64,000 bases of DNA from positions 41,942 through 105,941 of the IMG/VR virus record IMGVR_UViG_3300009365_003824; one strand, 5' to 3'. Made by a program: the position numbers and the translations under genes. The stretch is from a virus. Positions 6,893 to 53,092 of the stretch are shown here, in pieces. Position 1 is the stretch's first letter; the number at the start of each line of letters is the position of its first letter. The notes beneath the pieces were generated by a model that worked only from the letters and a program-made list of their open reading frames with translations, made no database searches and was not told the DNA's origin.

Positions 6893-7898
6893 TGCCTCTA
6901 CCTGTTCCATTCTTTCTTAATTGTTTACTTTTGTCGCTGATTTTACTAACTGATCTAGATACTAACTTAGCGTCACTGCCAAAATACCTTTTGTAAAACG
7001 CATGAACGTGTGGGAGCTTTTCTTCCATTTTTTGCTCAATCTGAGTCAGATGGTATGCACCCAAACGAAGTCGTTCCATTCTAGCGTGTCGGTTAGGAGA
7101 CTGTGTGAACACCCCGTAATGATATACACATTCTTCTTTGGTAACTTGACTTAATTTAACAATTTTTTTATCTTGCTCTTCTAGTCTGCGTTTTAAGAAA
7201 GACCCTATTTCATAAGTAACAATATCAATCTGCCTAGCTTCTTCTCCTGCTACATGTTGGTCGCCACCGTTATATTCTAAATCTGCAAAACCCTCAACAA
7301 ATGGACCTTCCATCCAGTAACCAGACCATCTATGTGATTCTTCTTTTTTTACTATCGTAAATTCGGTGCCCAATTTAGGAAATGTCAAATAGGTTTTATC
7401 TTTTATCTTAGACACCCTTAGCCTGTTTGTGTCTTCAAATCTAGGATCTTCATAAAAGACCGCACCAACTGATGGCATATTAATTTCTTCTTTTACAGCA
7501 CACCAGCTTGGATCTAGAATTAATACATCATCATGCATAACCAAATAGTCTTTTGTAAAAACCCAAGGATATGCTGAATCTAAGGCTTGACCTTGACCAA
7601 TACGAGACCATGTTCTTTGAACGGTAATGGGAATATATTCTCTAATTTTTTCTAAGAAAATCTGCTTCCTATCTTGGTTTACAAGATTTCCAGTCCTTTT
7701 ATCAGGACCATTGATAGACACGATGATGTGTTTTAGATAATCTGTTGAATTTAAGAATAGACTCACAATGCTAAGAGCCAGCATTTGAGGCGGGCAATTA
7801 TAAGTAGGAACAATGGCTGTAATGCCATCATTGGCATCTTCACTTATTGCCTTTTGCTCATCAAAAAAGTGCAGTTTTTTACCATTTTGCTTTAGCAT
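6852..7898 (-). CDS. GT2-like glycosyltransferase with C-terminal extension
   Basis: A 348-residue protein with a GT-A type N-terminal half: ITAIVPTYNCPPQML, HIIVSINGPDKRTG, then DYLVMHDDVLILDPSW, where HDD is the likely metal-binding motif. The C-terminal half has no recognised domain and ends in a basic stretch (SKISDKSKQLRKNG). It precedes the shorter GT2 gene, overlapping it by about forty bases. Both share the INGPDKR/CDGPDKR signature, so they may be related by duplication. Confidence 0.7.
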   Translation of the reverse strand: MLKQNGKKLHFFDEQKAISEDANDGITAIVPTYNCPPQMLALSIVSLFLNSTDYLKHIIVSINGPDKRTGNLVNQDRKQIFLEKIREYIPITVQRTWSRIGQGQALDSAYPWVFTKDYLVMHDDVLILDPSWCAVKEEINMPSVGAVFYEDPRFEDTNRLRVSKIKDKTYLTFPKLGTEFTIVKKEESHRWSGYWMEGPFVEGFADLEYNGGDQHVAGEEARQIDIVTYEIGSFLKRRLEEQDKKIVKLSQVTKEECVYHYGVFTQSPNRHARMERLRLGAYHLTQIEQKMEEKLPHVHAFYKRYFGSDAKLVSRSVSKISDKSKQLRKNGTGRGNADFFNRPRVQKD

Positions 7899-7911
7899 AT
7901 CTTAAATAAGA

Positions 7912-7940
7912 AAGTCGCCCCTAAAAATTAGGGGCGACTT
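7912..7940 (-). terminator. Hairpin terminator after the nucleotidylyltransferase gene
   Basis: A 12-bp perfect stem (AAGTCGCCCCTA with its complement) and a five-base loop lie ten bases downstream of the minus-strand stop at 7950. The following minus-strand bases are T-rich but not a pure T run. Confidence 0.7.
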
Positions 7941-7949
7941 CACCGTTCC

Positions 7950-8681
7950 TCAACTCTGACGCTTCCAGTTAAAGACCTCGCAACATGTTTCCATATACAC
8001 TTCTAGGCTTTCACCAGCATCTCGCCACCAACCATCAAGGAGATTAGCTTTTAACAAGCCATCTTTTAAATAAAGATTATTCAAATCAGTTATTTCCAGT
8101 TCCCCCCTGGCCGAAGGGCTTAAAGAATTGATATACTCCCAAACCCTACTGTCATACATGTAAATCCCGGTGGCAATGAGATTAGACTTGGGGTTTTTGG
8201 GCTTCTCTATAATTGATAGAACATTTCCATCGTCATCTGTTTCTACTACACCATACCATTCTGGATGTTCTACTTTAGTTAGAAAAATTCTAGCACCATT
8301 GGGATTGGTTGTAAATTCTTCTACAGCTTTTGGGAATGGATTTTCAACTAAATTATCTGCCAAAACAACACACATGGGATCATCTCCCACGAAACTTTCA
8401 GCATAAGATAGTGCGTCCGCAATCCCTCTGGGTTCATCTTGATAGGTGTAGTGGAGGCGTTTTAATCCAAACTCCTCCCCGTTTCCTAATATTCTAAGAA
8501 ATTCTCCTGCTGCGTTGCCTCCGCAAACCAAGAGAATGTCGGTCACTCCACTTTCGACAAGTGACCTGATTGGATAATAAATCATTGGTTGATCACAAAC
8601 AGGCAAAAGACATTTGTTTGTGACTTTTGTAAGCGGTTTAAGGCGTGTACCTAGACCACCAGCCAGAATAATACCTTTCAT
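7950..8681 (-). CDS. Glucose-1-phosphate nucleotidylyltransferase (RmlA-like)
   Basis: Condenses a sugar-1-phosphate with an NTP to give an activated sugar. The signature GIILAGGLGTRLKPLTKVTNK opens the protein, followed by LPVCDQPMIYYPI and YTYQDEPRGIADAL, all diagnostic of RmlA-type thymidylyltransferases, and VVLADNL, which is the metal-binding aspartate segment. At 243 residues it lacks the C-terminal dimer extension of full-length RmlA and matches the short class. It has its own terminator. It would supply donor for the glycosyltransferases nearby. Confidence 0.9.
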   Translation of the reverse strand: MKGIILAGGLGTRLKPLTKVTNKCLLPVCDQPMIYYPIRSLVESGVTDILLVCGGNAAGEFLRILGNGEEFGLKRLHYTYQDEPRGIADALSYAESFVGDDPMCVVLADNLVENPFPKAVEEFTTNPNGARIFLTKVEHPEWYGVVETDDDGNVLSIIEKPKNPKSNLIATGIYMYDSRVWEYINSLSPSARGELEITDLNNLYLKDGLLKANLLDGWWRDAGESLEVYMETCCEVFNWKRQS

Positions 8682-8744
8682 TATTTTATCTCCGATTGCC
8701 TTTCAAAGCTCGAAGATAATATAGTTAGTAGTACATAAAAAAAA

Positions 8745-8781
8745 CCCACTCTACCCCGACAGATGCAAGGGGCAGAGTGGG
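8745..8781 (-). terminator. Strong rho-independent terminator, minus strand
   Basis: Thirteen-base arms (CCCACTCTACCCC and GGGGCAGAGTGGG) with one mismatch and an eleven-base loop. They are followed on the minus strand by a run of eight T (8737-8744 read as A on plus). It ends the small-gene unit at 8801-9263. Confidence 0.85.
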
Positions 8782-8800
8782 CCGACCATGAAAAGGTCTT

Positions 8801-8992
8801 CTATACGGCTACGGCGGCGTCTGTTGATGACCAGCCACGAGATACATCAATGACATATTCGCCCGATTCTAATTCATCTTGGGCCATTTCTTCCGCATCA
8901 GACGAAGAAGGGCAGCTAAACTGCAACTTTCTCCGTTTCGGCCTCTTGGTGTCCAGATTCTTCCTCTCCACGATCACTTGGTAGTTCGGCAT
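8801..8992 (-). CDS. Hypothetical small protein
   Basis: Sixty-three residues beginning MPNYQVIVERKNLDTKR, with an acidic middle (SSSDAEEMAQDELESGEY). The start lies 77 bases inside the preceding minus-strand gene in another frame, and a plausible GA-rich site precedes the ATG. It is directly followed by a strong terminator. No family recognised. The N-terminal alternating pattern suggests a small beta-rich fold. Confidence 0.55.
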   Translation of the reverse strand: MPNYQVIVERKNLDTKRPKRRKLQFSCPSSSDAEEMAQDELESGEYVIDVSRGWSSTDAAVAV

Positions 8993-9263
8993 CTTCCTTT
9001 TTTTCCTCCTCTATCACGTTATTTTGAGTTAGGAACTCCAAAATAACGCTTTCCACGAACTCTAATTGGGCAACTGCCAATGCCTTGCTGAAGGGCATCT
9101 TCTTGCCTAGTTTCTCGCACCGCTCCCAGATTTGTTCACGATCTTCGCAGGCTAACACAGCAGCATCGGTAGTGTAAGAGTAGTCTCCTACCATGCCTCT
9201 ACGGATAGCGTGCTCAATACGAACAGTAAGCGGGCGCACGTCGGAAGGTTTTATCTTATCCAT
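8916..9263 (-). CDS. Hypothetical protein with acidic tail
   Basis: A 115-residue protein with an N-terminal helical region (KPSDVRPLTVRIEHAIRRGM) and a central segment KMPFSKALAVAQLEFVESVI. The last 35 residues are strongly acidic and Glu-rich. The tail coding region overlaps the next small gene in another frame. No known family; a protein-protein interaction role is a guess. Confidence 0.6.
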   Translation of the reverse strand: MDKIKPSDVRPLTVRIEHAIRRGMVGDYSYTTDAAVLACEDREQIWERCEKLGKKMPFSKALAVAQLEFVESVILEFLTQNNVIEEEKKEDAELPSDRGEEESGHQEAETEKVAV

Positions 9264-40733: not shown

Positions 40734-41180
40734 TTACCCTCTTTCAGTGTTGTGTGGTGAATAAACCATTCTTCCACAACGAGAACACCTTTCAGAGCAA
40801 ATCTCGTAACCATCTCTATCCCACGCATTGCCGCACCTACAAGAGTAGTGAGTGTTTTTGTTCACATTACGCAAATCTATAAAATCATTGTCTTCTGTAA
40901 TGCGAATGACATTTTTAGGATCATCCCAGAAACCTTTTCCTTTAACATCTGGGATAGGAGGCGGTCCACTCTCTACTCCAAATTTAATGCAATTATACCA
41001 TATTCTTTCGTGAAGATAGTAAATCACTATTTTGGCAAAGAAGTCTATTCCACAAATTAAACCTCCAACCCCAAGACTGCCAGTTAATGCCCAACCTGCT
41101 ATTCCTGTAATAGTGCTGCCTATGATGCGGTAACTTATTGCTTTAGCTAGATGCCTCTTCCGGCTTATCTTTTTCTTCAT
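40734..41180 (-). CDS. DUF2061-like membrane protein with zinc-ribbon tail
   Basis: A 148-residue protein. RKRHLAKAISYRIIGSTITG, then AGWALTGSLGVGGLICGIDF and IVIYYLHERIWYNCIKFG match the DUF2061 family of two-helix membrane proteins. The C-terminal region adds a cysteine-rich part (CRCGNAWDRDGYEICSERCS), a probable zinc ribbon that is not part of the standard family. It overlaps the capsid paralogue by 38 bases. Confidence 0.75.
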   Translation of the reverse strand: MKKKISRKRHLAKAISYRIIGSTITGIAGWALTGSLGVGGLICGIDFFAKIVIYYLHERIWYNCIKFGVESGPPPIPDVKGKGFWDDPKNVIRITEDNDFIDLRNVNKNTHYSCRCGNAWDRDGYEICSERCSRCGRMVYSPHNTERG

Positions 41181-42114
41181 CTTTTTTAACCTGTATTAAG
41201 CCATAATACTTAGTGCCCATGCGTAATAATTTTTTCCCATAACGAGTTATCAAACCCTTTTTGGGATGAAAGGTGTCAGGATCTAGAATAACAGGAGTAA
41301 AAGTTAGCGGAACATAAGGAGAATATTGGTATCCCGCCTCGTAATACCAGAGGTTATCTTCATCATCTTCTTTTTCTCTGCCCCTTAATCCTATAAGCAC
41401 AGTATCTTCGGGAAATTCCACATCAACATACAGTGGACAACCAATGTGGGATACAAAGAAAATTTCATCATCAGTTTCGGGAAATCTACCACTGTAATAT
41501 TCTGATAGCATTTTTCCTATCTTGGGAGAAGTTAAAATCCAATAATCGCTACTTAACAGTGTTTTTCTGTGGATGACATCTTTTATTTCCTTGATTCTAA
41601 AATACCAACCCTCTCCATCTAACCCAGGATCAACAAGAGCTTTAGTTCCAACATTGTTTCGTAAATCTGTTGTGATTTCACGGGTTATTTCATTTGATAT
41701 TTTGGCGGCTAGGTTTTCATCATCCCATTCTGTTTCTGTTTCTAGTCTTTTGGTCCTGGCAGCTATTTCTTCGCTATCTAAAACTAATTTAATTTCATCA
41801 CCATCTTCTTTGAATGCAAGAAAATAAACAAGTCCTGCTGGGCCTAGAAGAGTTTGAATAGAAACGAAATGCCTAGCCATGAGGTTAGAATAAATATCAA
41901 ATACCAGTTGAAGGTCAATCTTACTATGTCCAGATGAGGTTTCGTTCATCAATCGTTGGTTTTCTAATATGATCGCCAACTGTTTTGCATATTCAGAATC
42001 TACTTTCTCAAAAGGAAAATGATCCTTCCACTTCTCAAGACAAGAGGCAGCTTCTTCATCGTGCCTTTTTTTGGAAATCAAAGGGTCGAAAGGGTTTAGT
42101 TTCTTTTTGGCCAT
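41143..42114 (-). CDS. Capsid paralogue, probable vertex protein (T4 gp24-like)
   Basis: A 323-residue protein paralogous to the major capsid protein. Shared segments include LENQRLMNETSS, SIQTLLGPAGLVYFLAFKE, DSEEIAARTKRLETE, HRKTLLSSDYWILTSPKIGK, YSPYVPLTFTPVILDPDTFH and ITRYGKKLLRMGTKYYG. It lacks the insertion of about 150 residues between residue 105 and 258 of the main protein. In T4 the vertex protein gp24 is such a paralogue and forms pentamers. The AAGGAGAAACAAC site before ATG 42114 is strong. It lies about 9 kb from the head module. Confidence 0.8.
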   Translation of the reverse strand: MAKKKLNPFDPLISKKRHDEEAASCLEKWKDHFPFEKVDSEYAKQLAIILENQRLMNETSSGHSKIDLQLVFDIYSNLMARHFVSIQTLLGPAGLVYFLAFKEDGDEIKLVLDSEEIAARTKRLETETEWDDENLAAKISNEITREITTDLRNNVGTKALVDPGLDGEGWYFRIKEIKDVIHRKTLLSSDYWILTSPKIGKMLSEYYSGRFPETDDEIFFVSHIGCPLYVDVEFPEDTVLIGLRGREKEDDEDNLWYYEAGYQYSPYVPLTFTPVILDPDTFHPKKGLITRYGKKLLRMGTKYYGLIQVKKDEEKDKPEEASS

Positions 42115-42304: not shown

Positions 42305-43075
42305 ATGCCACACCCGCAATACAACAGATGGCAAACCCCGATAACATTCTCCTCTTATAAAGAGAGAAAGTTGATCAGAAGAATTGACAAAAAATTGGAG
42401 AAGATCGCAAGGTTAGACTATTGCGCAGGCGAGGGTGAAGTGCTTAATCCATTTGACAAACATAGGTTTGCTACTCAGCCCGTATATCATACGAAAGCCC
42501 CAAAAATTAGGGCTAGAGGGCAAATTGTAGTTGCATATCGTGAAATCACTGGGCAATATTCTATCCCATGTGATCGTGGTTATTGGACACTTTGTAACAA
42601 GCAACCTAATGTGGATGGTGCCGAAATCGTACAATTGGTGAAATGTGGGTTGTTGCAAAAAAAGCAGTTTTATGGAATCGACTATGATCTGAATGATGAA
42701 GGCATCATAGAATTCAACCAACAACAACATCCTGAAGCCAATTGGTTCAAAGGCGAGTGGTTAGAAGTCATTGAAGAAAACTACGAGTTGTTCAATCCTG
42801 GTCTAATCTATTTCGATTACACTCGCACAGTTGTTACTCCTGCTTGCCACTTGTATCTAGCTCGCACGATGAATATGTGCCCCCCCAAGACAGTCGTGGC
42901 AGCTAATCTTATGTTGTCGGATGGGCACTCTCGCCGCCGATTCGACCCAGATTTATTGGTCGAAAATCTGGGAATTCATTTAAGATCCCCCAGTAATTGG
43001 GATGTGTATGACAAGTATTATTCGTATAAATCTAGTCATACAGAAATGGCTACTTACATCTTCGTGAGAAAATAA
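42305..43075 (+). CDS. Putative class I methyltransferase-fold protein, helicase partner
   Basis: A 256-residue protein directly before the helicase, with no gap between stop and start. The FNPGLIYFDYTRTVVTPACH region has the shape of a Rossmann strand with an Asp-Tyr end, as in methyltransferase-like phage proteins found beside helicases. The N-terminal region RKLIRRIDKKLEKIARLDYC is helical and basic. No SAM motif is firm; the call is tentative. It shares an operon with the helicase and the repeat array. Confidence 0.4.
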   Translation: MPHPQYNRWQTPITFSSYKERKLIRRIDKKLEKIARLDYCAGEGEVLNPFDKHRFATQPVYHTKAPKIRARGQIVVAYREITGQYSIPCDRGYWTLCNKQPNVDGAEIVQLVKCGLLQKKQFYGIDYDLNDEGIIEFNQQQHPEANWFKGEWLEVIEENYELFNPGLIYFDYTRTVVTPACHLYLARTMNMCPPKTVVAANLMLSDGHSRRRFDPDLLVENLGIHLRSPSNWDVYDKYYSYKSSHTEMATYIFVRK

Positions 43076-44950
43076 ATGCATTTACATCCAGCTAATTTTG
43101 ACTACTACGATCCAAATTGGAAGCCCATTACGGCTAATATTGCGGTCTTAAAAGACACCGACCCCAAGGAGTTGGGATATGGTAATCGTGACTACCAAAT
43201 TAGATGCTACGAAGCGTTTCAAGGAAAAAGAAGAACGATATTTATTTCTCCGACAGGCAGTGGTAAAAGTTTAGTGCAGATTTTTAATGCTGCTAGAGAG
43301 ATTATTGAATCGGACTATGAACAAAAACAAGTGTTTATTGTCCCTCAATTGAATATTGGTGATGGTTTCACGGATTACAAACACAAAAAATTGCGGATCA
43401 ATGGTGAAATTTATGGTTGGGAGGTTACTACAAATTGTTGTTTTGACAATGAGCAGTCTGTTAAAAGAATCAGAGGTTTCCTCCTGAAGGATCATCCATG
43501 TAAATCATATCGAGCAAACAAGGTACTAGGAGGTTGCACCGCTGTAGTGAGTTATTCGGCATTGTTGGCAGCTTTTAATAGTATGACTCCTAGAGAAAAA
43601 ATGCGAGCTATTCAGAATACTTCATTTCGTCCCGATGAGGTTCATCATATCTCTGGCGTGGATGAAGGTGGTGTTGCACCAAACCGCTTAGGAGGATTTT
43701 GTAAATTCGTTTTGGACAATGACGGTTGCTTACACTTAACTACGGCGACATTCTTTCGTGGTGATCGGGGTGTAATTCTTGATGGTCATTATCTGGATGA
43801 TTTTGAGGTTTTCCGTGTCCCATTTCTTGAACACTGGGCGACGTTAAGATTAAAAGAACTTCATCAGGACTACCTTTGTTATAAAAATAGCAATGATCTT
43901 TTGAGACAAATTCTAACTGCTGTAGCGGCTGAACCAGATAAGCCACCAATCATCATCGTTCCAGCAGATGGACAAAAGTTCTTTAAACGCACAAACAAAT
44001 GGAAGTGGGTTGAAAGACTCGTGGATGGTTTGACTGAGATTTATGGAGATAGAGTTCTTGATCTTGTTACGCCTGAACGTCAACAACGAGACAAAAAACG
44101 ATTAACTGCTGATGTTCAAGATTTTTGTGCTGTTGTCACTTGTGCCATTGGAAGAGAAGGAACTGATTGGCCAGCATGTTCTCGTGTTCATAACACGGTA
44201 TTAGATGCTAATACTCTGCAACCAATTCAGAAACTCGGAAGAGCTTTGCGTCAACACGAAGAAAAAACCGATATTAAAATGTTTAATTATATTGAGCATT
44301 TTAAGAAGTGGGACGATAGCCCTGATACTGTTCGTGAAAAGCTATCAGATCGTTTCAATGCTGTTGTAATGGCCTCTATGTTGGATGATATGTTTTATCC
44401 CATCCTCATGCCAGCAATACCTCAAGATAAAAACCGCGTTTGCAATGTGACGCTTGAAGATGTGTATGGAAGCAAACGAAATGAATTAGTTGAAGATATG
44501 ATGCGACGATTACTGGCAATTCCCGCATCAAATAGAAACGCTGAAGCCATCAATGAACTTGTTGATGAGATCATTGAAGAATATGAAGACGACATGTTGG
44601 AGGATGTTTCACATGACACCCTCAGAGAACGATTGCGAAAAGAAATTCTCCGTCGCCAAAACCCTAGTAGTCCTAATCTTCGTATGGATGGGATGATTGT
44701 TGATTTTGTTCGTGAGCATGGTTGGGATAAGGTTATACGAAAATATATCGCCAAAAAATCCCCCTTTGTAGGCGTTGCAGCAACTAAAGACCTTGAAAAA
44801 TTGCAAAAGTTTTTAAACAAAGGCGATTGGCTAGAGAATGTTGAACAAATTAAAAAGATAGGACTTGAAAACATACAAAAAGGAAGTCGGCTTTATCATT
44901 TCCTTTTAAAACAACGCCGAGATTTCAGAAAGGCAACGCACAGTGCTTAA
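43076..44950 (+). CDS. Superfamily 2 helicase with truncated helicase-associated domain
   Basis: A 624-residue DEAD/DEAH-type helicase. The Walker A is SPTGSGKS (residues 58-65), motif II is a DEGG variant (199-202) in place of DEAH, and motif VI lies in LQPIQKLGRALRQHEEK. The C-terminal end GSRLYHFLLKQRRDFRK resembles the first part of a helicase-associated (HA) domain. It stops there, while the next ORF starts with LKKWQISALESIEGW, which would be the rest of that domain. The helicase and array thus look like one system split by a stop-start overlap. Confidence 0.8.
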   Translation: MHLHPANFDYYDPNWKPITANIAVLKDTDPKELGYGNRDYQIRCYEAFQGKRRTIFISPTGSGKSLVQIFNAAREIIESDYEQKQVFIVPQLNIGDGFTDYKHKKLRINGEIYGWEVTTNCCFDNEQSVKRIRGFLLKDHPCKSYRANKVLGGCTAVVSYSALLAAFNSMTPREKMRAIQNTSFRPDEVHHISGVDEGGVAPNRLGGFCKFVLDNDGCLHLTTATFFRGDRGVILDGHYLDDFEVFRVPFLEHWATLRLKELHQDYLCYKNSNDLLRQILTAVAAEPDKPPIIIVPADGQKFFKRTNKWKWVERLVDGLTEIYGDRVLDLVTPERQQRDKKRLTADVQDFCAVVTCAIGREGTDWPACSRVHNTVLDANTLQPIQKLGRALRQHEEKTDIKMFNYIEHFKKWDDSPDTVREKLSDRFNAVVMASMLDDMFYPILMPAIPQDKNRVCNVTLEDVYGSKRNELVEDMMRRLLAIPASNRNAEAINELVDEIIEEYEDDMLEDVSHDTLRERLRKEILRRQNPSSPNLRMDGMIVDFVREHGWDKVIRKYIAKKSPFVGVAATKDLEKLQKFLNKGDWLENVEQIKKIGLENIQKGSRLYHFLLKQRRDFRKATHSA

Positions 44951-45902
44951 AAAATGGCAAATATCGGCACTAGAAAGTATTGAAGGATGGGATGAATTCC
45001 TTGCTAATGCTAATAATGCTGCTGAAAAGAAGCAACTATTATTGGAAATGGCTAGGAATGGAGAGCCAAGGCCACGATCACAAAAACATTATCTTGCGGG
45101 AGCACTAAATTCTTACATCGGTAAGTCAAATAATAGTTACGACCCAGAGTTTGATAAAAAGATTAGAAAATTAGCACCACACTGGTTCGTTAGTACTGCT
45201 GCTAAAAATAAAAAACTGCTGCTAGAAATGGCGAGGAATGGAAAACCACGACCAGTTCAAACAACACAATTGGGATCAGCATTAAACTCTTATACTAAGG
45301 GTTGTTGTGATCTTGTTTTCGACAAAAAAATTAGAGAACTGGCTCCACATTGGTTTGATACTACTGCTAGGAACAAAGAAGCCCTTCTCGAAATGGCAAG
45401 AAGTGGAGAACCACGACCAAATTGTAAAAAGAATCCATTGGGAAAAAGACTTGTGCGTTATATCGGTAAGTCAAGTGGTTCTTATGATCCTGCTTTTGAC
45501 AAAGAAATTAGAAAACTAGCCCCACATTGGTTTGTTGACACTGCTGCTGAAAAAAAACAACTATTGTTGGAAATGGCCAGGAATGGAGAACCACGACCAA
45601 CAAAAAACCCGCTAAAATCAGCATTAAATAATTATCTTTGCGAGGCAAGCGGCTGTTGCGACCCTGTTTTCGACAAAAAAATTAGAAAACTAGCCCCACA
45701 TTGGTTTGTTGATACTGCTGCTGAAAATAAGAAACTATTGTTAGAGATGGCACGCAATGGTGAACCCAGGCCAAATAGCAAAAATGGATCTCTGGGGAAT
45801 TGTCTTGTGCGATATACGAATAATACTAGCTCCTATGATAAAGAGTTTGACAAAAAAATTAGAAAACTAGCTCCGCACTGGTTCAGGAAGAATCATGCTT
45901 AA
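44943..45902 (+). CDS. Helicase-associated-type repeat protein 1 (five repeats)
   Basis: A 319-residue protein from GTG 44943, overlapping the helicase stop by eight bases. After a head of 27 residues (LKKWQISALESIEGWDEFL) come five repeats of about 55-65 residues with the consensus LLLEMARNGEPRP-x-PLG-x-L-x-Y-x-SYDPxFDKKIRKLAPHWF. The pattern resembles helicase-associated (HA) domains, which bind nucleic acid. The segments between GEPRP and LG are variable in length and charge. The order of three such genes after a helicase suggests a modular DNA-recognition array. Confidence 0.8.
   Translation: MLKKWQISALESIEGWDEFLANANNAAEKKQLLLEMARNGEPRPRSQKHYLAGALNSYIGKSNNSYDPEFDKKIRKLAPHWFVSTAAKNKKLLLEMARNGKPRPVQTTQLGSALNSYTKGCCDLVFDKKIRELAPHWFDTTARNKEALLEMARSGEPRPNCKKNPLGKRLVRYIGKSSGSYDPAFDKEIRKLAPHWFVDTAAEKKQLLLEMARNGEPRPTKNPLKSALNNYLCEASGCCDPVFDKKIRKLAPHWFVDTAAENKKLLLEMARNGEPRPNSKNGSLGNCLVRYTNNTSSYDKEFDKKIRKLAPHWFRKNHA
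44944..45001 (+). repeat. Direct repeat DR1 (58 bp), copy 1
   Basis: This 58-base element (TGCTTAAAAAATGG through GAATTCCT) occurs three times, at 44944, 45896 and 46869, with only one or two differences. It spans the overlap start codon and the first 19 codons of each repeat gene. Such conservation at synonymous positions, far above that of the repeats, points to recent duplication, gene conversion or a cis-acting signal. Confidence 0.9.
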
Positions 45903-46875
45903 AAAATGGCAAATATCGGCACTAGAAAGCATTGAAGGATGGGATGAATTCCTCAATGAGGAATCGTCTTCTGCCAAAAATAAAAAACTGTTGTTGGAAA
46001 TGGCAAGAAATGGAGAGCCAAGACCAAAAAAAAATAAACACCCATTGGGATCTGTACTGACTGCTTATACAGGAAAAATGAGAGATTGTTACGATCCTGT
46101 ATTTGACAAACAAATTAGAGAATTAGCTCCACATTGGTTCATTGCTGTTGTAGAAGAAAATAAAAGACTATTATTGGAAATGGCAAAGAAGGGAAAACCA
46201 AGACCAAAACAAGGCAAACATCCGTTAGGAGGCAAATTGAGTGATTACACCAATGGAATCCATCGTGGTTCTAAATTTGACAAGCAAATTAGAAGATTGG
46301 CACCACATTGGTTTGTCGAACAAACTATCGAACAGAAAAAACAACAACTCCTTGAAATGGCAAGAAATGGCGAGCCAAGACCATCTCAAAGGAAATATCC
46401 TTCACTGGGGTCTGCATTAAGTCGTTATACTGACAAAAACAAATCTTATGATCCTGACTTTGATAGAGAAATTAGAAAATTAGCACCGCATTGGTTTGTT
46501 GATGCTGCTGAAAATAAAAAATTGCTTCTTGAAATGGCTAGGAACGGAGAGCCAAGACCATCTAAGGAAATCCCATTAGGAAGAATAATAAATTATTACT
46601 TTAGGTGCGATCCTGATTTTTACAAGAAGATCAAAGAATTAGCTCCACATTGGTTCGATAGGAAAAGTCATAAGCAATCTAAAATTGCCAAGCAGAAAAA
46701 ACAACAACTTCTTGAAATGGCTCGCAATGGAGAGCCACGACCAAAAAGAAAAAAACACAAATTAGGAATATCATTGGGTTGTTATACCAGTAAAAACAAT
46801 AGTTCTTATGATCCTGCCTTCGACAAGCAGATTAGAAAACTAGCTCCGCACTGGTTCAGGAAGAATCATGCTTAA
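45895..46875 (+). CDS. Helicase-associated-type repeat protein 2 (five repeats)
   Basis: A 326-residue protein with the same head and five repeats of the same consensus. The start ATG at 45895 overlaps the previous stop as ATGCTTAA, the same stop-start form as the first junction. Its fourth repeat is shortened (GRIINYYFRCDPDFYKKIKE). The C-terminal RKNHA before the overlap echoes RKATHSA of the helicase, so the junctions themselves are homologous. Expected to be translated by reinitiation. Confidence 0.8.
   Translation: MLKKWQISALESIEGWDEFLNEESSSAKNKKLLLEMARNGEPRPKKNKHPLGSVLTAYTGKMRDCYDPVFDKQIRELAPHWFIAVVEENKRLLLEMAKKGKPRPKQGKHPLGGKLSDYTNGIHRGSKFDKQIRRLAPHWFVEQTIEQKKQQLLEMARNGEPRPSQRKYPSLGSALSRYTDKNKSYDPDFDREIRKLAPHWFVDAAENKKLLLEMARNGEPRPSKEIPLGRIINYYFRCDPDFYKKIKELAPHWFDRKSHKQSKIAKQKKQQLLEMARNGEPRPKRKKHKLGISLGCYTSKNNSSYDPAFDKQIRKLAPHWFRKNHA
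45896..45953 (+). repeat. Direct repeat DR1, copy 2
   Basis: Second copy of the 58-base element; it differs from copy 1 by a C for T at base 36 inside the head coding region and is otherwise the same through GAATTCCT. Confidence 0.9.
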
Positions 46876-47308
46876 AAAATGGCAAATATCGGCACTAGAA
46901 AGTATTGAAGGATGGGATGAATTCCTTAATGAAGAATCTTCTTCTGACAAAAAGAAAAAACTGCTTCTTGAAATGGCACGGAATGGAGAACCACGACCAA
47001 AGAGTAAAAAACATCCGGGTGTAGCATTGAGTAATTACATCAGTAAGTCAAGTAATGCTTACGATTCAGACTTCGATAAGAAAATTAGAAAACTGGCACC
47101 ACACTGGTTTGTTGATGCTGTTGCTGAAAAGAAAAAACTGCTTCTTGAAATGGCAAAGAATGGTGAACCACGACCGAAGTGCGTCTTCGGCCAGAAAAGC
47201 AATCCATTGGGAAGGGCGTTAAGGGATTACATCAGTAAGTCAAGTGGCTCTTACGATCCTACTTTCGACAAGCAGATTAGAAAACTAGCACCGCACTGGT
47301 TCAATTAG
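46868..47308 (+). CDS. Helicase-associated-type repeat protein 3 (two repeats)
   Basis: A 146-residue protein with the shared head and two repeats; the first lacks the L of the LG pair and the second carries an insert (KCVFGQKSNPLG). It starts at ATG 46868 by the same eight-base overlap and ends the array. The short size suggests a truncated copy or a recent partial duplication. It ends tail-to-tail with the methyltransferase gene (24-base overlap). Confidence 0.8.
   Translation: MLKKWQISALESIEGWDEFLNEESSSDKKKKLLLEMARNGEPRPKSKKHPGVALSNYISKSSNAYDSDFDKKIRKLAPHWFVDAVAEKKKLLLEMAKNGEPRPKCVFGQKSNPLGRALRDYISKSSGSYDPTFDKQIRKLAPHWFN
46869..46926 (+). repeat. Direct repeat DR1, copy 3
   Basis: Third copy of the 58-base element, identical to copy 1 through the head coding region. 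Confidence 0.9.
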
Positions 47309-48689: not shown

Positions 48690-48908
48690 TTATTTCTTCA
48701 ACAACCTCAATAGTCGCTTTAACAACCTGTTGTTTTCTTTCAATAATTTGTTGTGTTCTTCTAGTAGCTCTAATAATTCTGATTTAAGATTTGGCATTTT
48801 AAATTCAGTTTCGGTTGGCTTTGCTGATTCCATTTTTGTAGATTCTAAGAGTTCTAAAGGTGATTTTAATTGCTTCAATGGCGATTGTGTTATATTTGTT
48901 ATATTCAT
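48690..48908 (-). CDS. Small leucine-zipper-like coiled-coil protein
   Basis: Seventy-two residues from ATG 48908. The C-terminal half is a clear heptad coiled coil (LKSELLELLEEHNKLLKENN, then RLLKRLLRLLKK) with leucines at regular spacing. It probably dimerises and could bind DNA through the basic end. TATATA lies just before the start. No family recognised. Confidence 0.6.
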   Translation of the reverse strand: MNITNITQSPLKQLKSPLELLESTKMESAKPTETEFKMPNLKSELLELLEEHNKLLKENNRLLKRLLRLLKK

Positions 48909-50332
48909 GCAGTATATATCAAACCACACAAAACTTCTGACTCCGTAATTTCTAATTTATCACGACATGCCTGCCGTATTGCTTTATACTGATTTACTTC
49001 TTTTGGTGGTTCTGAGAAAGATGGAGTTTGTCCACTGAAAAAACTGTCAAGAATTTCAGGGATGCGTTCCTGATCCCAAAAAGGAATATAAAGGATAGGA
49101 ATATTACGTTGTTTTAGATATTTAAGTTTGCGGTGGTCACGTTTGATATATGAATAAAGGTTTTTGTACTTGGTGTTGTGCTTGCCACCAAAATAAACAG
49201 GAATGTAATGCGGTTCTCCTTGATACTCAATCAATCCTTTTTCGGTAGCAAAATCAAATCGTAAATTTCCAATTGAAGATTTTTTAAATCTGAATTGTGG
49301 TTTGAATATGATTTGGTTTTGTTCAAGGTATTCATAAATTATTTTTTCATTTCGAGATGTTTTACATTTATGACACCTCTTACCTTGTTTAAAATTACTA
49401 AAACGAATCTCTGATTTATTGCCGCACTTACAAATATAAGGCATAGATGTATTATTGCCAATATACTCCGTAGCAAGTAGTTTACACCCCCCATCAGCAA
49501 AATATTGTTTGACATATTCAAAGGAATGTTTCAATGATTTTGCTATTTTATTATTACCACAATTCCTGCACCTATGACCTACCTTAAAACTACCAAAACT
49601 AATTTTTGATTCATTACCACATTCACAAATATAAGGCATTGGAGCATCTTTGCCAGTATATTCTGTGGCAAGTAATTTACATCCATGATCCTCAAAATAT
49701 TGTTTGACACACTCAAAGGAATGTTTATTTAATTGGCTTAGCCTCCTATTGCTGCATTTTTTACACCTTTGACCTTGTTGCAAATTATAGAATCTAATTT
49801 TTGATTCATTACCACATTCACAAATATAAGGCATGGAAGTACCACTGTTTTTATATTCCGTAGCAAGAAGTGTACATCCACGATCTTCAAAGTATTTTTT
49901 TACATATTCAAGGGAGTGTTTTTGTGATTTGACCATCTTTTTAGTGCCGCACTCTCTGCACCTATGACCTGCCTTAAAATTACTAAAACGAATTTTTGAT
50001 TCATTACCACACTCACAAATATAAGGCATTGGTGTACTCGTGTCGATATATTCGTGTTTCTCAACAAGAAGTGTACACCCTTGGTTTATGAAATGTTGTC
50101 TCATTTCTTCAAAAGATGTTCTGCGTGCAAGACCACTCTTTTCAATTCCACAGAGTTTACACCTTTTCCCATGTTGAAAATTGTTGAAATTGATTTCTGA
50201 TTTATTGCCACATTCACAAATGTAAGGCATTGAAACATTAGCATTAATATATTCCACAGCAAGAAGTTCACATCCATGATTCTCAAAATATTTTTTTACA
50301 TATTCAAAAGTTAATTTTTTCAAAATCCACAC
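48905..50332 (-). CDS. Zinc-ribbon-array homing endonuclease-like protein (EDxHD type)
   Basis: A 475-residue protein. Five repeats of about 65 residues, consensus F-x-YVKxYFExxGCxLLATEY-x-MPYICECGNxSKIxFxNF-x-GxRCxxC, each with four cysteines as a zinc ribbon, resemble DUF723-type repeats. They are followed by a C-terminal nuclease domain: NEKIIYEYLEQ (E), NLRFDFATEKG (D), IEYQGEPHYIP (H) and YIKRDHRKLKYL (D), the EDxHD arrangement of Vsr-like homing enzymes. GTG 50332 is a likely start with GAGG close upstream. Divergent from the next endonuclease gene. Confidence 0.75.
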   Translation of the reverse strand: MWILKKLTFEYVKKYFENHGCELLAVEYINANVSMPYICECGNKSEINFNNFQHGKRCKLCGIEKSGLARRTSFEEMRQHFINQGCTLLVEKHEYIDTSTPMPYICECGNESKIRFSNFKAGHRCRECGTKKMVKSQKHSLEYVKKYFEDRGCTLLATEYKNSGTSMPYICECGNESKIRFYNLQQGQRCKKCSNRRLSQLNKHSFECVKQYFEDHGCKLLATEYTGKDAPMPYICECGNESKISFGSFKVGHRCRNCGNNKIAKSLKHSFEYVKQYFADGGCKLLATEYIGNNTSMPYICKCGNKSEIRFSNFKQGKRCHKCKTSRNEKIIYEYLEQNQIIFKPQFRFKKSSIGNLRFDFATEKGLIEYQGEPHYIPVYFGGKHNTKYKNLYSYIKRDHRKLKYLKQRNIPILYIPFWDQERIPEILDSFFSGQTPSFSEPPKEVNQYKAIRQACRDKLEITESEVLCGLIYTA

Positions 50333-50382
50333 TTGCCTCACTATATAAATTATGGTAAAATACGCCAAAAGGAGAAATTACC

Positions 50383-51543
50383 ATGTATTTACAAGAACTG
50401 AACGGTATTCTACCCGCTCAAAAAGTAAAAATCAAGTATGACTGCAATGGTGGATTTGAACGTTGTGGTCAAGAGTGGGAGCTTAAATTAAAGGATGCTC
50501 AAAAGAATTTTAAGAAGAATGAAGGAAAACACATTTGTCGAAAGTGTACGCTACGACAAAAAAATCCGATGTTCGACAAAAAGAACGTTGAAAAGATCAA
50601 AAAGACTAATTTAGAAAGGTATGGAACTGAACACCCGCTAAATTCTGAAGAACACATCCAAGAACGCCGGGAACAACTCAAAGATCCAGAATTCAAGAAG
50701 AAATGGTTGGCAAAACACCGGCAAACATCACTTGAGAAGTATGGTGTCGAACACCATATGAAGAGTGAAGTCTCAAAAGAAAATCAAAGAAAATCAATGA
50801 GAGAGAAGTATGGTGTAGATTACCCATATCAATCCGAAGAGATTATGGCCAAAATGAAAAAACGTAATTTGGAAAAGTATGGAGTAGAAAATGCAGCATC
50901 TCGACCAGAAGTTCAAATTAAAATGGCAAAGACGAGATTAGAAAAATATGGAGTAGAGCATTATAATCAATTACCAGAAATGAGAGAATATTTAAGAGAA
51001 CACTGTACAGAATGGCTGGCTGAAAGTTATAAAAATCCGTGGGCCAAAGGAATTACGAGGCCAGAGGAATGGAATCAGAAACAGAGGGAAACGGTTGCTA
51101 AACTTATTACCGAAGGCAATTGGCCAGGAGGATTTGTGTCTAATTGTCGAGGAAGATATAAAGCAAAAAAATGTAAAAAAGAAAACCCTCGGTTTCTATC
51201 TGGTTTAGAATTGCAAATGCACTTTTTTTTAGACAATCATCCAGATGTAGAATGGTATAATTATGAGTCTTTTGCTATTCCCTATTTAGATCAAGATGGC
51301 AAACAGCATCTATACTTTCCTGACTTTTTAGTTAAATATAAAAATGATCCATTAGAACACATTATTGAGACTAAAACATGGAAAGATAAGGATTCAATTA
51401 CTGTGAAGTTAAAACATGACGCAGCAGTTGATTATGCAAATGAACGGAGCATGACATATACAATTTTATTTGATGAAGATGTGCAAGAATTGGGAATAGA
51501 TTTAGAAAGTGTTAAAAATTTACCAGTAGTTGAATTATATTAA
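50383..51543 (+). CDS. Second homing-endonuclease-like protein with YG-repeat and PD-(D/E)xK domain
   Basis: A 386-residue protein. An N-terminal zinc-like part (CNGGFERCGQEW; HICRKCTLRQ) is followed by repeats of the type LEKYGVEHxxxS (TNLERYGTEHPLNSEE; TSLEKYGVEHHMKSEV; RNLEKYGVENAASRPE; TRLEKYGVEHYNQLPE), common in phage homing enzymes. The C-terminus has a nuclease centre: YFPDFLVKYKNDP and HIIETKTWKDKD (D and ExK). AAGGAGAAAT precedes the ATG. It is adjacent to the other nuclease gene and to the capsid gene. Confidence 0.75.
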   Translation: MYLQELNGILPAQKVKIKYDCNGGFERCGQEWELKLKDAQKNFKKNEGKHICRKCTLRQKNPMFDKKNVEKIKKTNLERYGTEHPLNSEEHIQERREQLKDPEFKKKWLAKHRQTSLEKYGVEHHMKSEVSKENQRKSMREKYGVDYPYQSEEIMAKMKKRNLEKYGVENAASRPEVQIKMAKTRLEKYGVEHYNQLPEMREYLREHCTEWLAESYKNPWAKGITRPEEWNQKQRETVAKLITEGNWPGGFVSNCRGRYKAKKCKKENPRFLSGLELQMHFFLDNHPDVEWYNYESFAIPYLDQDGKQHLYFPDFLVKYKNDPLEHIIETKTWKDKDSITVKLKHDAAVDYANERSMTYTILFDEDVQELGIDLESVKNLPVVELY

Positions 51544-51616: not shown

Positions 51617-53092
51617 TCAAATCACAAAATTGGCAATCGAGAGGCGTGCGTAGAATTTAGCACCTTCTCTCAAAAGTTTTTTACCATATCTCGTTAAAAT
51701 ACCTTTTCTTGGGCAAAAATTCTCTGGGTCCAGAACCACTGGGGTCTGTGTCAGGGGGACGTATGGTAGGTAAAAATACCCAGCATCCATATAACTGTCG
51801 CCCTTGTAACCCATTAAAATCTGCCCTTGCGGGAAGAGCGGATCTTTGTATAATCTCCAGCGAGAATTTACTGTTCCGACGTATTGAATACCCAAGGAAC
51901 TTGTGAATGTCTCGGAAGGAGCGGGTGCGAAACCAGCAGTTGCGGTTTCAAAAATGGAGGCTACTTCAGGAGAAGTTACCAACCAGTTGCAACCACCACG
52001 CAGAGTTTTACGGTGAACAACATTTGAAACTTCTACGACCTTGACATACAAGGATTCGTATTTTTCTTTAATTGTGTCACCAAGCGCGGTATTGAAATCC
52101 CAGGAGGAAATTGTGCCAGCGTTGTTTCTCAGGTCAGTGAGAACTTCACGGTCGATTTCCAAGTTAATTTCCTGAGCCAAGATAGCAGTTAATTCTGCTT
52201 CGGCGTCAAGATTGTGCTGAGATCGCAGGTCTTGCTGAGCTTCGTAGCTCCAAACGGCCTTCAATTTACGAGTCTTGGCTGCAACTTCTTCGGATTCGAT
52301 AACCATGTTGATCTCAGGAAGATCAGGGTTACATTCCATGTTGTACTCATAATTTACAAGCACATAGTTTTCGCCAGGACCAGCCCCGCCACCACCAGTG
52401 TCAGACCACTGGACAACAACTTCACCCGTTGTAAGGTCCATTGAGGAACCTGTAGCAACTGGGGTATAGTCGGGGGAGCCAATTGTTGTAAATGTAAACG
52501 CACCATTTTCACCAACACCAAAAGTAGCGACTGCGGTTGTGCCATCAAAGACGGTACCTGTCATGCTACCAGCGAGGATTGGGGTGTGTTCAAGCGGAGC
52601 ATAAACACTAACCATATCCAAGCCATCATCCTGAGAGCTAGTCTCGTTCTGGATGAACTGGTGGGAGTAGTAAATATCCAAGTTTGCATCACCAGATGCC
52701 AACTGTTGGAGGGTGTTTACATCGTCATCTGGATAGCCAGCGTTATTATCAGCACCACGGGTGGCACCTTTATTGCTGGAGTATCTAAATCTCAGGTAGT
52801 AAACCAAACCAGTTGGGCCAAGTAGCGGTTGAACGGAAACAATTTTATTTGCGATCAACTGCGGATAAATTCTACGGACCAACGGAATAGAAATTCTTTT
52901 GAACTGGGCGATGTCGCCAGTATCAGTAGAGACTTCGTTGAACAATCTCTGGTTTTCCAGAAGAACAGCAGTGCAAGAGCGGGTATAGTCATCATCTAAA
53001 TCGCCTTTGACGCTCTTCAGCAAACCTGTTTTGTTCCAGAAGCCTTCGCATTCTTTTGCTTCGTTAAGAAGCCTTGAATTGCCACTAAACAT
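51617..53092 (-). CDS. gp23: Major capsid protein (T4 gp23-like)
   Basis: A 491-residue HK97-fold capsid protein. The N-terminal RLLNEAKECEGFWNKTGLLK contains LNE-A, the [LI]-x-E cleavage form of T4 prohead protease, at about residue 11, so the removed piece is shorter than in T4. SVQPLLGPTGLVYYLRFRY and LRGGCNWLVTSPEVASIFET are conserved in T4-type capsid proteins, as are YLPYVPLTQTPVVLDPENFC and ILTRYGKKLLREGAKFYARL. Residues about 105-258 form a beta-rich insertion absent from the paralogue. It follows the scaffold gene on the same strand. Confidence 0.9.
   Translation of the reverse strand: MFSGNSRLLNEAKECEGFWNKTGLLKSVKGDLDDDYTRSCTAVLLENQRLFNEVSTDTGDIAQFKRISIPLVRRIYPQLIANKIVSVQPLLGPTGLVYYLRFRYSSNKGATRGADNNAGYPDDDVNTLQQLASGDANLDIYYSHQFIQNETSSQDDGLDMVSVYAPLEHTPILAGSMTGTVFDGTTAVATFGVGENGAFTFTTIGSPDYTPVATGSSMDLTTGEVVVQWSDTGGGGAGPGENYVLVNYEYNMECNPDLPEINMVIESEEVAAKTRKLKAVWSYEAQQDLRSQHNLDAEAELTAILAQEINLEIDREVLTDLRNNAGTISSWDFNTALGDTIKEKYESLYVKVVEVSNVVHRKTLRGGCNWLVTSPEVASIFETATAGFAPAPSETFTSSLGIQYVGTVNSRWRLYKDPLFPQGQILMGYKGDSYMDAGYFYLPYVPLTQTPVVLDPENFCPRKGILTRYGKKLLREGAKFYARLSIANFVI

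Follow-up and report, generated by a model that had tools for sequence, protein, structure and literature searches.

What purpose is served by a viral helicase gene that runs directly into three overlapping genes made of tandem repeats? This arrangement occurs in the IMG/VR virus record IMGVR_UViG_3300009365_003824 (105,941 bases), of which the window analysed here, a stretch of 64,000 nucleotides, comprises bases 41942–105941; all positions below are those of the window. A first-pass annotation had proposed that the three genes form a modular array for DNA recognition and had named no described system with such a layout; a literature search likewise found no description of the layout as it is now understood, namely helicase, arrays, and an additional protein, designated X. 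What was observed is confirmed, and the earlier reading of it is supported in part; it is incomplete, as it overlooked both protein X and the way in which related loci exchange their repeat families. The locus is one instance of a phage cassette that recurs across lineages and had not been described; a role in modular targeting is plausible for it.

The cassette lies entirely on the plus strand. The helicase (43076–44950; 624 residues) is a superfamily 2 (SF2) DExH helicase/translocase that possesses a Walker A motif, DExH box, motif III, and motif VI (GSGKS, DEVHH, TAT, and QKLGRALR) and matches Pfam ResIII above the cut-off (2e-7); its start codon abuts the stop codon of X. Array gene A (44943–45902; 319 residues, GTG start) encodes a leader and five units, array gene B (45895–46875; 326 residues) a leader and five units, and array gene C (46868–47308; 146 residues) a leader and two units. 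Each gene overlaps its predecessor by eight nucleotides with the shared stop–start pattern [AG]TGCTTAA: GTGCTTAA at the helicase/A junction (44943–44950) and ATGCTTAA at both the A/B (45895–45902) and B/C (46868–46875) junctions, just as the first-pass annotation had described. AAAGG precedes the first overlap (44929–44933), and AGGAAG, which is Shine–Dalgarno-like, precedes the second and third (45885–45890 and 46858–46863). Read in this way, with Shine–Dalgarno-like sequences ahead of them, these are coupled starts of an ordinary kind.

All three array genes open with one common leader, [MV]LKKWQISALESIEGWDEFL, located at 44943–45035 in A, where it resembles the tail of a helicase-associated (HA) domain, at 45895–45987 in B, and at 46868–46960 in C. 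The units then follow at 45036–45188, 45216–45356, 45381–45533, 45561–45707, and 45735–45884 (A1–A5); at 45988–46140, 46168–46314, 46345–46497, 46522–46656, and 46705–46857 (B1–B5); and at 46961–47110 and 47138–47302 (C1 and C2). Units are 45–55 residues long and are separated by linkers of 8–16 residues. Described earlier as twelve near-identical copies, they deserve that description for their framework, in which LLEMA..G.PRP and F...I..LAPHWF are kept in 12/12 copies, far more than chance would give, and 18 alignment columns are invariant, but not for the middle segment, which differs in both length and sequence. Synonymous sites between units are saturated, and the ratio of nonsynonymous to synonymous substitution (dN/dS) is 0.07 in the first framework block, approximately 0 in the last, and 0.29 in the middle; the units are thus of long standing, with purifying selection acting on every one of them. 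The same saturation rules out recent duplication of units, and positive selection on the variable segment is not demonstrated by a dN/dS of 0.29 with dS saturated.

No family in Pfam or PADLOC scans covers the repeat open reading frames (ORFs). Their PHROG matches are few, short, and partial, and nearly all are to families of unknown function; weak Pfam, PHROG, and PADLOC matches such as HNOB, Cmr5, and APP_Cu_bd were taken as chance hits on repetitive sequence. The HA domain (PF03457) was not found in the repeat ORFs by hmmscan, nor in record G000, and comparison of the unit with 48 HA domains using hhalign gave a probability of <1%; the window unit is, on these profile comparisons, not demonstrably an HA domain. 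Comparison with INT_rpt (PF14882) produced neither a Pfam match nor hhalign support, and a sequence profile of the unit found nothing meaningful in the PDB.

Protein X (42305–43075; 256 residues) is assigned to the cassette because its homologue adjoins the helicase and arrays in relatives, and by this conservation of position it is a conserved partner. X matches no Pfam or PHROG entry and none of the DNA methylase families, and its sequence profile likewise found nothing meaningful in the PDB. An AlphaFold2 (AF2) model built with 11 relatives has a mean predicted local distance difference test (pLDDT) score of 81.6, and all 50 PDB matches listed by Foldseek are class I methyltransferase folds that use S-adenosylmethionine (SAM) (probability 1.00, best expect value (E) 7e-7), at template modelling (TM) scores of 0.36–0.49. 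The predicted topology is seven-stranded and Rossmann-like; assignment of the model to the class I methyltransferase fold is sound, but the superposition, at these modest TM scores, is loose. The glycine-rich SAM motif GxGxG is absent from all 15 members inspected, most of which keep an acidic residue following strand 2 and, following strand 4, an aspartate.

The first-pass annotation had suggested a search of other phages for homologous arrays; profiles of the unit, the helicase, and X were used to find relatives, and arrays with differing unit counts came to light in approximately 14 other viral lineages and one cultured phage, Tunturi_5. A tblastn search of 50,697 phage records, with the repeat ORFs and X as queries, gave no match, and 84,980 prokaryote genomes, scanned for the repeat unit and X at pattern-limited sensitivity, yielded no relative. 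If H denotes the helicase and [n] an array gene with n units, the window reads X-H-[5][5][2]. Loci with the window's repeat family read X-[6][1][5][5][3]-H (L009/L014), X-H-[7][7][1] (L011/L016), [6]-X-H-[5][4][5][5] (L012/L023), X-H-[2][3] (L013/L018), X-H-[2] (L033), and X-H-[about 3, degenerate] (L044). In L021, read (H+3 units+2 HA)-X, the helicase, units, and two canonical HA domains form a single protein; L017 reads (helicase C-terminal part+7 units)-X, and L031 reads H-X with no recognised repeats. L022, L019, and L051 are orphan or truncated. Array genes, coupled or fused, number one to five, with one to eight units per gene, and the order of X, helicase, and arrays varies between lineages. 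X and helicase occur together in relatives with enough flanking sequence, with the exceptions of L017 and Tunturi_5. The earlier idea of a modular array attached to a helicase gains from these differing counts and from the L021 fusion, but recent expansion of the window's array does not fit the saturated synonymous sites.

The suggestion that the overlaps might reflect misassembly does not survive: assembly error is in practice ruled out, since a second contig (IMGVR 3300007510_000039) matches the window with one mismatch in 19.9 kb—although it may not be an independent sample—and the layout is shared by divergent phages. Three observations on individual relatives may be recorded here. In L017 (7606–9995), the array protein beside X is fused to the helicase C-terminal part only, the motor domain seemingly having been lost. 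L022 carries an orphan three-unit array gene (8641–9177), and the X profile finds nothing in that 125-kb record. L019 (1–126) and L016 (8334–8459) share 126 identical bases at the start of an array gene, the two phages being approximately 75% identical elsewhere; recombination at the leader would account for the block, but it lies at the start of the L019 contig and is possibly an assembly k-mer overlap, and it was therefore not used as a case of recent array recombination.

What occupies the array position is not constant. At least six repeat families are found in arrays: family a (that of the window), HA, INT_rpt, and three unnamed families, d, e, and f. No similarity between any of the families is detectable by hhalign, and iterative models of the families matched 0 shuffled decoys. 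Unrelated families nonetheless fill one slot, as in L032, H-[d5][d3][d3]-X; L050, H-[e7][e7][e6]-X, in which the counts include a half-unit leader; L052, (H+f5)-X, in which the helicase is fused to five units of another family; L024, X-H-[3]-[INT_rpt 8][INT_rpt 6]; and Tunturi_5, H-[e5][e3], without X. The main clades of the X and helicase trees are congruent, and families a and e are each found in both deep clades. Within each locus, the N-terminal leader is uniform across array genes, even where the repeat families differ: in L024, the leader MI..I...Y..LC.LF.F stands at the front of a family-a gene and of both INT_rpt genes. It is therefore the leader that is tied to the locus, whereas the array can be interchanged.

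The helicase offers a candidate docking site for such a leader. Its C-terminal tail, GSRLYHFLLKQRRDFRKATHSA (44882–44947, plus strand), resembles the middle of an HA domain, and the first-pass annotation had held that the helicase ends inside such a domain, which the next ORF completes. When tail and leader were joined by hand, HA (PF03457) ranked first among Pfam families at 15.8 bits (E = 0.018), which lies below the curated cut-off of 28.4. Against a home-made HA profile from plasmid helicases, the joined sequence scored 16.6 bits, compared with 7.9 for the best of approximately 560 scored shuffles. The L050 helicase terminates in part of a family-e unit (21.8 bits), and the leaders at that locus each resemble the second half of such a unit. 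Helicase tail and leader together thus weakly resemble one split HA domain, and we infer from the recurrence of the split-domain pattern that docking may proceed by domain completion.

The array units are predicted to be compact and helical. An AF2 model of array C, built with 32 two-unit sequences, has a mean pLDDT of 94.3 and three helices per unit, which in ORF C span residues 25–38, 51–58, and 67–76 and are followed at PHWF by a brief helical turn. Among the columns that vary most are the second residue past the PRP motif and, in helix 2, the x positions of LG-x-x-L-x-x-Y, where variable positions alternate with conserved L/Y; in the model, variable columns cluster at exposed positions of helix 2, which would fit an exposed, variable face. 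Arrays carry a net charge of +7 to +10 per 100 residues, and X and the helicase are near neutral.

The preferred reading, which we give an even chance of being right, is that of a translocase aimed by interchangeable, leader-docked recognition subunits, with X as a modifying or SAM-sensing partner. The core would be the SF2 translocase and X, served by several separately translated adaptors, each comprising the locus-shared leader and tandem small, basic, three-helix units. The leader of each adaptor would dock on the helicase, possibly completing the HA-like domain begun by the helicase tail, and the array would contact nucleic acid by way of helix 2, with its variable exposed face, such that each adaptor takes the motor and X to its own target. 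Coupled starts would hold adaptor levels in balance, and in L009 the arrays must act in trans, because they precede the helicase there. The likely role would be action at chosen sites on competing phage, host, or own DNA or RNA. DNA is somewhat more likely as the target than RNA, since in L021 a single protein contains both canonical HA domains and a ResIII-type motor. A more specific version, in which the arrays read their own sequences by a unit-wise code, the split-domain leader snaps onto one translocase, and the methyltransferase-fold partner acts on the site, is tentative, and on balance we doubt it.

Several observations weigh against targeting by leader-docked adaptors. Docking through a split HA domain rests on sub-threshold matches, and X, given its missing glycine-rich SAM motif, may be inactive. 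Pfam and PADLOC scans found no nuclease domain in the window's helicase, and none was identified in the cassette; restriction is therefore not claimed. Foldseek found no solved structure in the PDB like the repeat protein, and DNA binding is thus unsupported by fold. Finally, X is not strictly required, since Tunturi_5 has a helicase and arrays without it, and nor is the helicase, since L022 has only arrays.

Of the competing explanations, the one that survives best is that the helicase serves recombination and replication or transcription, in the manner of UvsW, RapA, or Rad25, and that the arrays are tails which raise its affinity without sequence specificity. The sequences of solved chains nearest to the helicase are XPB/RAD25-like; chains at E ≤ 0.001 include XPB/RAD25 and Dicer-related entries, with UvsW not among them. 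Rad25-related and Snf2-like helicases of jumbo phages are thought to serve recombination or transcription (PMC7824862), and the basic charge of the arrays would suit such a tail. However, several leader-bearing genes, variable faces, and exchanged families exceed the needs of a generic affinity tail, and X is left unexplained. The L009 genome, moreover, encodes a separate, stronger ResIII helicase of 513 residues, and hence the cassette helicase—whose motifs are conserved across relatives—is probably not simply the UvsW of that phage; no second ResIII helicase was found in G000, a possibly incomplete record. We regard this explanation as unlikely, if deserving of serious weight.

RNA, rather than DNA, could be the substrate, with the cassette acting as an RNA-remodelling or -modifying machine for host takeover or against RNA-targeting defence and X resembling fibrillarin or a 2′-O-methyltransferase. 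Fibrillarin and rRNA methyltransferases do appear among the Foldseek matches of X, and Dicer-related helicases match the motor at weak E-values; yet the fold matches span many class I enzymes and are not specific to those acting on RNA, and the canonical HA domains of L021 link the array position to bacterial helicases. An RNA machine is, in our view, distinctly improbable.

Repeat arrays commonly mediate protein binding. The array genes could accordingly be adaptors for protein partners, acting as decoys for, or inhibitors of, a range of proteins from host or phage, and no solved DNA-binding fold matches them. Their basic composition, the fusion of arrays to a translocase in L021 and L052, and the presence of canonical HA domains alongside units in the L021 protein argue against this role, which we hold to be very unlikely. 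Production of one large protein by programmed frameshifting at the TGCTTAA junctions, with restoration of the split helicase-associated domain, would accommodate the HA match of the joined tail and leader and the recurrence of the eight-nucleotide overlap in L009 and L012, but fusion as the main route is scarcely credible given the Shine–Dalgarno-like sequences before the starts, the position of the L009 arrays upstream of their helicase, and the four-nucleotide ATGA overlaps of most relatives, others having short gaps or larger overlaps.

Should the targeting of a translocase by interchangeable adaptors prove correct, phages would possess a motor directed to its target by modular readers that can be exchanged, and the arrays would represent new families of nucleic-acid-binding repeats and a new phage route to act at chosen sequences. 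Regardless of the model, a recurrent phage cassette of X, helicase, and arrays is defined, the genes of which have so far lacked useful annotation or have been labelled only 'DNA helicase'; six unrelated repeat families in the same slot make a direct test possible.

The window contains a T4-type head module, and the cassette sits between its two Gp23-family genes, on the opposite strand to them. A short Gp23-like protein is encoded at 41143–42114 and the full-length major capsid protein of the Gp23 family at 51617–53092, both on the minus strand; they are perhaps gp24 and gp23, respectively. The interval flanked by these genes also holds methyltransferase- and sulfotransferase-like genes and endonucleases. 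One endonuclease (48905–50368, minus strand; phrog_559 HNH endonuclease, E 8.6e-73) combines five cysteine-rich, zinc-ribbon-like repeats with a C-terminal nuclease-like part and, being itself repeat-bearing, may account for mobility of the region. A further protein (50383–51543, plus strand) contains several LEKYGVEH-type motifs ahead of a nuclease-like part at its C terminus, and its homologue in L010/L011 occupies the same position, beside the arrays and gp23. In L032, the helicase and arrays are preceded by two genes (7080–8860), one for an N6/N4 DNA methylase and the other ParB-like.

Among known systems, type I restriction-modification (HsdR, HsdM, and the exchangeable HsdS) resembles the cassette in logic only, as a motor combined with a methyltransferase fold and exchangeable putative recognition subunits; X lacks GxGxG, no nuclease was found, and the arrays are not HsdS-like. 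Transcription activator-like effector (TALE) and TALE-like repeats share with the window arrays a conserved framework and variable inner residues in tandem (PMC4066763, PMC11417379). However, TALE units are approximately 34 residues long, and those of the TALE-like class have 33–35 residues with a base-specifying diresidue, which does not describe the window units: these have 45–55 residues plus a linker and three predicted helices, and belong to a phage helicase cassette. The main text of a 2024 systematic survey of DNA-binding tandem repeats names neither phage nor helicase-linked arrays (PMC11417379). INT_rpt, the integrase repeat unit, is present in two array genes of L024, in one of them above the cut-off, but there it follows a helicase rather than an integrase and has no detectable kinship with the window unit. 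In the cultured Tunturiibacter jumbo phage Tunturi_5 (gp98–gp100; PP885688), a homologous helicase is followed by two adjacent repeat genes, each of which begins with an HA-tail-like leader, and the repeats are of family e, unlike those of the window. The repeat arrays gp99 and gp98 (L035:9854–11709, PP885688.1) are deposited as 'DNA helicase', which is likely a misannotation.

The closest likeness is to the tandem HA (PF03457) helicases, bacterial DEAD/DEAH proteins found mostly on actinobacterial and Pseudomonas plasmids, which, like the cassette, join an SF2 motor to repeats, in their case of 60–70 residues. They differ in that the window unit has no profile similarity to HA, no X partner is annotated in HA-helicase regions, and the phage cassette draws on several repeat families and divides its array among genes that each bear a leader. 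Splitting is not unique to phages, because a Tsukamurella plasmid (L055:1–5411, NZ_LR134455.1) carries three HA-only genes, with several four-nucleotide overlaps, upstream of a DEAD/DEAH helicase. The plan of a motor with tandem repeats is thus already known from HA helicases; what appears to be new is the conserved X partner, the leader-bearing split arrays, and the exchange of unrelated repeat families.

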